A stretch of 32,965 bases of DNA from an uncultured Prochlorococcus sp. (GTDB taxonomy: Bacteria > Cyanobacteriota > Cyanobacteriia > PCC-6307 > Cyanobiaceae): the NCBI GenBank assembly GCA_902589115.1, contig CACIRS010000013.1, positions 1 to 32,965 of the forward strand, given 5' to 3'. A program made the position numbers and the translations under genes. How positions within the stretch are numbered: position 1 is the first letter of the stretch; the number at the start of each line of letters is the position of its first letter. Positions 19,744-21,571 of this stretch are shown piece after piece. The notes under the pieces are model-generated. The model had not been told where the DNA came from. It saw only the letters and a list, made by a program, of their open reading frames with translations, and did not search any database.

Positions 19744-20382
19744 TTAACCTTCCCATCCCAGTGCATTGGCAACTGTAGGAAATTGGATGGCAAAAATATC
19801 TTTACTTTCTAAAGCTATATTCATATGTTCTTTTTGAGTGCCGTGACCTGACCTGAGATTGATATAATGAATCCATGATCTACATGATCCAGTCATATAT
19901 ATTTTTGTAGGTGTTGCTATTGGTAGCACAAAACGAGCACATTCTTTTGCTACTCCAGCTTCTAGCATTTCTTGATATAACTTCTTAGACTCTTCAAAAT
20001 GCCTTTTGATTTTTGAGGAGAATTGTTGAGATACTTCTTGGTCTAAGTCACAAATAGAATTTTGCCTATTTTTTTTGTCCTGTCGACGAAGTTCAGGGAT
20101 TGGAATTTCTCCTAGTTGAGTGCTATCAGCATATCTTTGAGAAAATTCTTGAAAAGTAAATGACCTATGTCTCAATATTTGAGCTGCTATTCCTCTATTT
20201 GTTTCTATTTCTAAAGTCATATATGCTTGTTCAAAAACACTCCAATGTTCATTATTAATGCAATATTTAAGTAGATTTGAGAAATTTTCATTAGATTGAT
20301 TATTTGGATTACTAACTCTTGCTATGTATGCCATACCTTTTTCAGCATTAGGAGTGACAGAAATAAATTTAACGTTAGACAT
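19744..20382 (-). CDS. thyX: Flavin-dependent thymidylate synthase ThyX
   Basis: ThyX methylates dUMP to dTMP with methylene-tetrahydrofolate, FAD and NADPH. The 212-residue product contains the defining signature RHRSFTFQEFSQRY (the RHR-x7-S motif) and the flanking HWSVFEQAYMTLEIET, with C-terminal SCRSWIHYINLRSG contributing to the active site. It starts 2 bases after the dcd stop, as the third gene of a compact operon (cobO-like, dcd, thyX). This is biochemically coherent: dCTP deaminase supplies the uracil nucleotide that becomes dUMP, the ThyX substrate. No thyA is seen here. Confidence 0.95.
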   Translation of the reverse strand: MSNVKFISVTPNAEKGMAYIARVSNPNNQSNENFSNLLKYCINNEHWSVFEQAYMTLEIETNRGIAAQILRHRSFTFQEFSQRYADSTQLGEIPIPELRRQDKKNRQNSICDLDQEVSQQFSSKIKRHFEESKKLYQEMLEAGVAKECARFVLPIATPTKIYMTGSCRSWIHYINLRSGHGTQKEHMNIALESKDIFAIQFPTVANALGWEG

Positions 20383-20384
20383 CT

Positions 20385-20978
20385 TTATACCTTTGCTAGA
20401 GTAACTTTTTCTGGCTGATGTTGATATTTTCCTTTGCGATCACTATAAGTTGTTTTACAAGGATCACCTTCAAAGAAAAGCAGCTGACAAATGCCCTCGT
20501 TGGCATAAATCCTACAATCAGCTCCTGAACTATTACTAAATTCTAGGGTTAAGTGGCCTTCCCAACTTGCCTCTGCTGGGGTTGTATTAACAATGATTCC
20601 AAGTCGTGCGTATGTACTTTTACCAAGACATATTACAGTTATATTTGGAGGTACTTTCATTTTTTCAAGAGCAACTCCTAATCCATAGGAATGTGCTGGA
20701 AGTATAAAAAAATCTCCATCTTCATCTGATTGCAAGGGGGTTGATTCTAGGTTTGCTGGATTAAATTTCTTAGGGTTCATTACAGTCCCTGGAACATGTC
20801 TAAATATGAGGAATTCATTTGAGGAAAGTCGTAGATCGTAGCCATAAGAAGAGCAGCCGTAACTGAGAACAGGACGATCTTTGCTTTCTGGTCCTAGTTT
20901 TCGAACCAACCCTGACTGGAATGGTTCCAGCATTCCAGCTTCTGCTTGTTGTGTGATCCAGAGGTCGTTTTTAAGCAT
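20385..20978 (-). CDS. dcd: dCTP deaminase
   Basis: The enzyme deaminates dCTP to dUTP, the main bacterial route to dUMP for dTMP synthesis. The 197-residue product matches the trimeric Dcd/dUTPase fold. It shows LSYGCSSYGYDLRLS, the core GKSTYARLGIIVNTTPAEAS with the catalytic glutamate in PAEASWEGHLTLEFSN, and the C-terminal YSDRKGKYQHQ that closes over substrate. Whether it is deaminase-only or also hydrolyses dUTP cannot be told by eye. Its ATG overlaps the TAA of the upstream cobO-like gene by one base (TAATG), so translation is coupled on both sides. Confidence 0.94.
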   Translation of the reverse strand: MLKNDLWITQQAEAGMLEPFQSGLVRKLGPESKDRPVLSYGCSSYGYDLRLSSNEFLIFRHVPGTVMNPKKFNPANLESTPLQSDEDGDFFILPAHSYGLGVALEKMKVPPNITVICLGKSTYARLGIIVNTTPAEASWEGHLTLEFSNSSGADCRIYANEGICQLLFFEGDPCKTTYSDRKGKYQHQPEKVTLAKV

Positions 20979-21571
20979 TAGTAACTACACCTTGATTTTG
21001 TTACTTGATCTGCCATGTCTATGATTTTGGTTGGAATAGATGGGCCAGTTAGGATGACATCCATTGAGCTTGGTCTTTGCTCCAGTGCTGAAACTAACTC
21101 TTTTTCGTTTAAATATCCGTAATCTATTGCTAGTCCAATTTCATCTAAAACTAATTGATCTAGATCGCCTTTTATCAAGTGAGAGCTACATTTATTCCAT
21201 ATTGCTCTAACAGAATCTTGTCTATGAATTTGATCTTCATAAGATGACTTCTCAAGAATTTCTTTATTAATGCAACACGAGATATCTGGCCTCATCCATT
21301 TTAAGCGTCCACATAGTTGAATAGCTTCGGTTGGACCTTGGTTTACTCCTCCTTTAAGAAATTGTGCGATTAAAACTTTACTGCCGAGTCCAGCAGCTCT
21401 CAGGGCTTCGCTAAGTACTCCTGAGAAACTTCCTCGGAACGGGGCGGTATGAACTTGAAGTTGACCTTCTTGAACTACTAGATGAAGAGGAGTCTTTTGC
21501 TCAGTCACCCCAATTGGCCTTAAACCAATTGGGGTGACTGTCATTTCATTTGAAATTGGGCTGGCAGTCAT
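20978..21571 (-). CDS. CobO/BtuR-family protein with a degenerate P-loop
   Basis: The 197-residue product resembles cob(I)alamin adenosyltransferases of the CobO/BtuR type in its second half: QLVLDEIGLAIDYGYLNEKE (139-158) and DVILTGPSIPTKIIDMADQV (171-190) align with the LDELxxALxxGYL and LTGRxxPxxLIDLADLVTE motifs of that family. It also has SEALRAAGLGSKVLIAQFLK (54-73), matching the helix and strand after the P-loop. However, where the family has its GxGKGKTT P-loop, this protein reads HTAPFRGSFSGVL (41-53), with no lysine and no threonine pair. Classical ATP-dependent adenosyl transfer is therefore doubtful. It is first in an operon with dcd and thyX. N-terminal 25 residues look unstructured and are encoded over a perfect hairpin; a GTG at codon 22 is an alternative start. 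Confidence 0.8.
   Translation of the reverse strand: MTASPISNEMTVTPIGLRPIGVTEQKTPLHLVVQEGQLQVHTAPFRGSFSGVLSEALRAAGLGSKVLIAQFLKGGVNQGPTEAIQLCGRLKWMRPDISCCINKEILEKSSYEDQIHRQDSVRAIWNKCSSHLIKGDLDQLVLDEIGLAIDYGYLNEKELVSALEQRPSSMDVILTGPSIPTKIIDMADQVTKSRCSY
21502..21540. repeat. Perfect 16-bp inverted repeat at the start of the cobO-like/dcd/thyX operon
   Basis: CAGTCACCCCAATTGG (21502-21517) and CCAATTGGGGTGACTG (21525-21540) pair perfectly around a 7-base loop. In the minus-strand mRNA it spans codons 11-23 of the cobO-like gene, directly after an internal in-frame ATG (codon 10) and covering an in-frame GTG (codon 22). No U-run follows on either strand, so it is not a standard terminator. Confidence 0.9.

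Follow-up and report, generated by a model that had tools for sequence, protein, structure and literature searches.

What can a protein of the CobO/BtuR family do once its ATP-binding loop has gone, and what ties it to the dCTP deaminase gene dcd that follows it? This question is raised by a gene of an uncultured Prochlorococcus sp. in a window of 32,965 nucleotides, by which we mean the whole stretch of DNA that was analysed. We refer to its product as PLL, for P-loop-less CobO/BtuR-fold protein. In most cyanobacteria, the most abundant marine phototrophs included, the reductase that supplies DNA precursors depends on B12. Published work names NrdJ and MetH as the enzymes that use B12 in Cyanobacteria and describes Prochlorococcus and Synechococcus as organisms with class II ribonucleotide reductase (RNR) (PMC6370689). 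In the open-licence literature, we found no study describing the route by which NrdJ acquires or renews its cofactor in cyanobacteria.

Fold and catalytic motifs of PLL

PLL is a homologue of the CobO/BtuR fold. In a Pfam profile search, PF02572 matched residues 35-194 with 96 bits (cut-off 25.7), Salmonella CobA (4hut, 1g5r) was found as a sequence match with an E-value of 8e-12, and profile-profile comparison with the CobO/CobA fold (hhalign) gave probabilities of 99.8-99.9%. The family assignment made in an earlier, sequence-only reading of the window is thus borne out, and the structure prediction that it had proposed leads to the same family: the AlphaFold model (mean pLDDT 84.6) has CobA as its top PDB match, with TM-scores of 0.63-0.65 by query length and 0.66-0.80 by target length, and the following matches are much weaker.

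Within the family, the CobO equivalog model TIGR00708 scored only 80.6 bits, under its cut-off of 167.75. The best NCBIfam model was NF005648 (PRK07414.1) with 157.4 bits, which is also under the curated 248, and scores in other picocyanobacteria range from 127 to 180 bits. PLL is nevertheless orthologous to this family, as it forms one clade (100/100) with members above the cut-off and has the dcd neighbour in common with them. The PLL family is therefore already present in NCBIfam, where its curated name is ‘P-loop NTPase family protein’. This name is misleading because the members that we inspected lack a P-loop, and the same holds for the automatic name ‘cob(I)yrinic acid a,c-diamide adenosyltransferase’. 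Such names would cause B12 biosynthesis genes to be miscounted in genomes and metagenomes.

The P-loop segment of CobA, T35-GNGKGKT-T43, aligned without gaps to T42-APFRGSF-S50 of PLL, K39, K41 and T42 being replaced by Arg46, Ser48 and Phe49, respectively. The sequence-only reading had noted the loss of this loop, stating that no Lys or Thr was left. The loss stands, as does the disappearance of the functional Lys and Thr; the loop as it was quoted does include one Thr, which precedes the loop proper (CobA T35). We compared 15 canonical CobO proteins with 70 PLL orthologues, which range from marine picocyanobacteria to relatives of Nostoc and represent over 20 GTDB families besides the picocyanobacterial one. 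The P-loop, the FTW(E) motif and the TGR motif were each present in all 15 canonical proteins and in none of the 70 orthologues, which read TGP, TGS, TGT, TGA or TGQ in place of TGR. W92 and R94 are invariant across the PLL orthologues, and an alignment of 25 diverse PLL rows contained 15 invariant columns. The equivalents of CobA Phe91 and Trp93 depend on the alignment, as MAFFT pairs Trp93 with the invariant Trp92, whereas hhalign pairs Trp92 with CobA Phe84.

Judged by these motifs, PLL appears to have lost the catalytic apparatus while retaining the CobO fold, and it is best explained as a catalytically dead CobO paralogue. The suggestion of a repurposed protein in the earlier reading likewise fits best with a fold that is kept and a P-loop and two other CobO motifs that are lost. 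It is improbable that PLL still works as an enzyme on ATP, with Arg46 and further residues standing in for the P-loop. Arg46 does occupy the position of CobA K39 in 69 of the 70 orthologues, and the Walker B motif (LVLDE in PLL) is conserved in its LDE. However, the catalytic Lys position is taken by Ser or Phe and the Thr/Ser position by Phe or Tyr, the Arg of TGR is missing throughout, and the FTWE segment is replaced. Decay into a pseudogene, to which the missing motifs might point, can be dismissed with near certainty, since the ORF is intact in every orthologue aligned, invariant residues are found class-wide and the coupling to dcd is conserved.

Single origin of PLL, and other CobO copies in the genome

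A tree was built from PLL, canonical CobO, a tandem paralogue and CobO from elsewhere in the phylum. The P-loop-less proteins, of which 20 were sampled, fell into a single clade (100/100), and each of the 44 remaining rows possessed the P-loop; the sister group of the PLL clade is unsure because of long branches in the tree. The comparison with orthologues, which the sequence-only reading had recommended, rules out that the loss is peculiar to this genome. As the P-loop is absent from all 70 orthologues, its loss is most readily read as ancestral, an ancient trait of the subfamily. The alignment and the tree together point to one ancient event of motif loss, after which PLL was retained by most cyanobacteria. 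No viral copies of PLL were found in a search of IMG/VR.

The same reading had advised a search for a P-loop-bearing CobO elsewhere in the genome. Two such genes are present in the assembly, which is 71% complete: a canonical CobO with the loop GNGKGKTT (C1:40928-41446) and a tandem two-domain CobO paralogue with two intact GEGKGKS loops (C31:3938-5080). Corrinoid adenosylation therefore need not rest on PLL.

Gene order and ribonucleotide reductase class

The PLL ORF is intact from its ATG start codon and, as had been noticed before, it is coupled to dcd, the TAA stop codon and the ATG of dcd having one base in common (Table 1). Together with the spacing of 2 nt between the end of dcd and the start of thyX on the same strand, this overlap makes PLL, dcd and thyX look like a single operon, which we consider probable.

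Table 1. Features of the PLL locus, with positions in the window
Feature	Position	Strand	Basis
PLL (P-loop-less CobO/BtuR paralogue), 197 aa	20978..21571	-	ORF list, profile and structure matches
Position of the former Walker A loop in PLL, residues 42-50, TAPFRGSFS	21422..21448	-	Alignment
PLL motif L90-x-W92-x-R94....C100, where canonical CobO has its FTWE segment	21272..21304	-	Alignment
Walker B-like VLDE kept in PLL, residues 141-144	21140..21151	-	Alignment
TGP in PLL, residues 175-177 (TGR in canonical CobO)	21041..21049	-	Alignment
TAATG, overlap of PLL stop and dcd start, translational coupling	20976..20980	-	Read in the sequence; conserved
dcd, dCTP deaminase, next in the operon after PLL	20385..20978	-	TIGR02274, 116 bits (cut-off 92.8)
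thyX, flavin-dependent thymidylate synthase	19744..20382	-	Its own sequence and recurrence beside dcd (no profile search)

This arrangement is widespread. At all 109 picocyanobacterial PLL loci (80 + 29), dcd lies directly downstream on the same strand, mostly with a one-base overlap. In other families, 32 of the 60 loci show the same order, the two genes lying 6-266 bp apart. PLL thus adjoins or overlaps dcd at 141 of 169 loci, and thyX and dut recur nearby. This gene order ties PLL to deoxynucleotide metabolism across the class. No gene-order link of PLL with nrdJ or with PRK07413, the tandem paralogue, was seen in the loci inspected, and the surroundings of dcd showed no scar of PLL in four non-carriers (G284, G054, G121 and G051). 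The thyX ORFs of G121 (locus L279) and G054 (locus L278) encode 690 and 439 aa and the dcd ORF of G121 encodes 542 aa, all well above normal length, which suggests the presence of inteins in these thymidylate-gene neighbours.

RNRs were scored in two sets of 80 genomes using the NrdJ profiles TIGR02505 and TIGR02504 and the class I NrdB profile PF00268. Set 1 was taken from the Cyanobacteriia in our phylum sample, the non-carriers of the class included, and comprised 38 PLL carriers and 42 non-carriers; set 2, the second 80 genomes, comprised 69 and 11, respectively. All 38 carriers in set 1 had NrdJ (TIGR02505) and none had NrdB. The 42 non-carriers divided into 37 with class I only, 3 with class II only, 1 with both and 1 with neither (G051). 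In set 2, class II was found in 67 of the 69 carriers, some of them with the TIGR02504 type and two (G326 and G450) with NrdB in addition, and the remaining carriers G335 and G501, which gave no RNR match, are fragmented or incomplete drafts. All 11 non-carriers in set 2 had class II, several of these genomes being incomplete. Over the 160 genomes, class II RNR therefore accompanies PLL in 105 of 107 carriers, the other two being the drafts just mentioned, and PLL occurs in none of the 37 class-I-only genomes. There are, however, 14 class II genomes without PLL, of which G054, G121, G284 and G381 are complete or nearly so. The relation thus holds in one direction: a carrier has class II and a class-I-only genome never has PLL, but a class II genome may lack it.

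PRK07413 is unlinked to PLL, yet it has the same distribution. Its full-length form was present in 40 of 42 NrdJ genomes and in none of the 37 class-I-only genomes, and fragments were detected in G203 and G172, both of which have class I RNR. By contrast, most class I genomes have canonical CobO as well, which therefore serves another need, presumably cobamide synthesis for MetH.

Three genomes combine both RNR classes, namely G203, which has lost PLL, and G326 and G450, which have it; they are possible intermediates of an RNR switch. G051 (GTDB family f7, a single contig, 99% complete) gave no NrdB or NrdJ match with any of the three profiles, and it also lacks PLL, in contrast to its close relative G233. 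Many NrdJ ORFs are 1000-1850 aa long or split.

The main rival to a role linked with B12 is that PLL has no tie to this cofactor left, and either acts on Dcd as a regulator or structural partner or is a dNTP sensor that tunes the dUTP/dTTP supply. The close and recurrent proximity to dcd, with thyX or dut nearby, argues for this idea, and the loss of the P-loop and FTWE removes the grounds for assuming corrinoid binding. Against it, Dcd is a weak predictor of PLL in set 1, where 8 of the 38 carriers had no Dcd match above background and about 24 of the 42 non-carriers possessed Dcd (Fisher p 0.055). The carriers without Dcd weaken the view of Dcd as an obligate partner, and RNR class fits the distribution of PLL far better than Dcd does. 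We therefore regard a role confined to Dcd or dNTP sensing as unlikely, but as deserving serious attention.

The co-distribution itself might be a lineage effect, PLL having been lost in clades that also happened to gain class I RNR. The association of PLL with RNR class in set 1 has a Fisher p of 1e-18, a value that ignores kinship. The class-I-only genomes belong mostly to one large clade and the early-branching family f2, and PLL losses without a change of RNR exist. On an RpoB tree, five independent informative pairs were identified, every one of which agrees with the expected direction (sign test p = 0.0625); with only five such contrasts, part of the pattern may well be due to shared ancestry. 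However, the pattern recurs inside the mixed families f4 and f11, no contrast runs in the opposite direction, and the unlinked PRK07413 follows the same distribution. In our judgement, it is doubtful that lineage accounts for the co-distribution.

Proposed role and comparison with known systems

Our preferred reading, held tentatively and with somewhat less than even confidence, is that PLL is a catalytically dead CobO paralogue in B12-dependent dNTP synthesis, either handling the cofactor of NrdJ or acting as a partner of PRK07413. As PLL is found almost only together with B12-dependent RNR, its part in this process is probably accessory and not enzymatic. A role with the NrdJ cofactor is consistent with the fold and descent of PLL, the loss of its motifs, the constraint on its sequence, its dNTP gene context, its link to RNR class and the distribution of PRK07413. 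We envisage that a CobO/BtuR-fold protein without catalytic function, passed on by vertical descent, became fixed early in the Cyanobacteriia, dropped the loop for the ATP triphosphate and the other adenosyltransferase motifs, and gained invariant residues of its own. It would act in deoxynucleotide supply where the RNR is the adenosylcobalamin-dependent class II NrdJ, and would handle the corrinoid without making it, either as an escort that brings adenosyl-(pseudo)cobalamin to NrdJ or in the removal of spent corrinoid. Alternatively, it could be the non-catalytic partner of the tandem two-P-loop paralogue PRK07413. The simplest model would be that PLL handles or senses the NrdJ cofactor, alone or with PRK07413. 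In this model, we infer that PLL binds a corrinoid and that it touches NrdJ or PRK07413, and we likewise infer which way the cofactor would pass.

The NrdJ protein of Prochlorococcus shows an almost tenfold daily swing (PMC3430701), from which we conclude that the demand for cofactor must vary strongly. The main weakness of the cofactor-handling model is the loss of FTWE: this segment contacts the corrinoid in CobA, so corrinoid binding by PLL may have been lost too. Furthermore, PLL adjoins dcd and not nrdJ, and the 14 class II genomes without PLL imply that the need of NrdJ for it is not universal. We regard as rather unlikely the narrower idea of PLL and PRK07413 as a pair dedicated to supplying or repairing the cofactor of class II RNR. 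If true, it would describe a class II RNR accessory system, one partner of which is a catalytically dead adenosyltransferase, and we found no report of such a system.

Our literature search, which covered open-licence papers, found no described P-loop-less CobO or class II RNR accessory, and no paper on the P-loop loss of PLL, its coupling to dcd or its link to class II RNR. PLL, as a class-wide protein without an ATP site that is tied to dNTP genes and class II RNR, offers a concrete gene for experiment.

Compared with the CobO/CobA/BtuR adenosyltransferases (PF02572, TIGR00708; Salmonella CobA, 1g64, 4hut), PLL has the same fold and length, and it keeps the QFxKG, Walker B LDE, RP, TG and ADxVTE stretches of canonical CobO. 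It differs by the absence of Walker A, FTWE and TGR, by its own invariant Arg46, Trp92, Arg94, Gln78-Gly79 and Gln189, and by its separate clade (100/100). NF005648 is its orthologous family, in the same clade and with inspected above-cut-off members that also lack the P-loop, the window protein lying under the curated score (157 versus 248 bits). Like PLL, PRK07413 (NF005647) is a CobO paralogue of cyanobacteria, is confined to genomes with class II RNR and lacks FTWE; unlike PLL, it has two domains, each with an intact GxGKGKS loop and TGR. The fold of human ATR (MMAB) is not known to be related to that of CobO and PLL, and the likeness to PLL is functional only. As a functional model, human ATR and similar escorts may nonetheless be instructive, since this adenosyltransferase doubles as an adenosylcobalamin escort and its chaperone role is separable from catalysis by mutation (PMC8633584).
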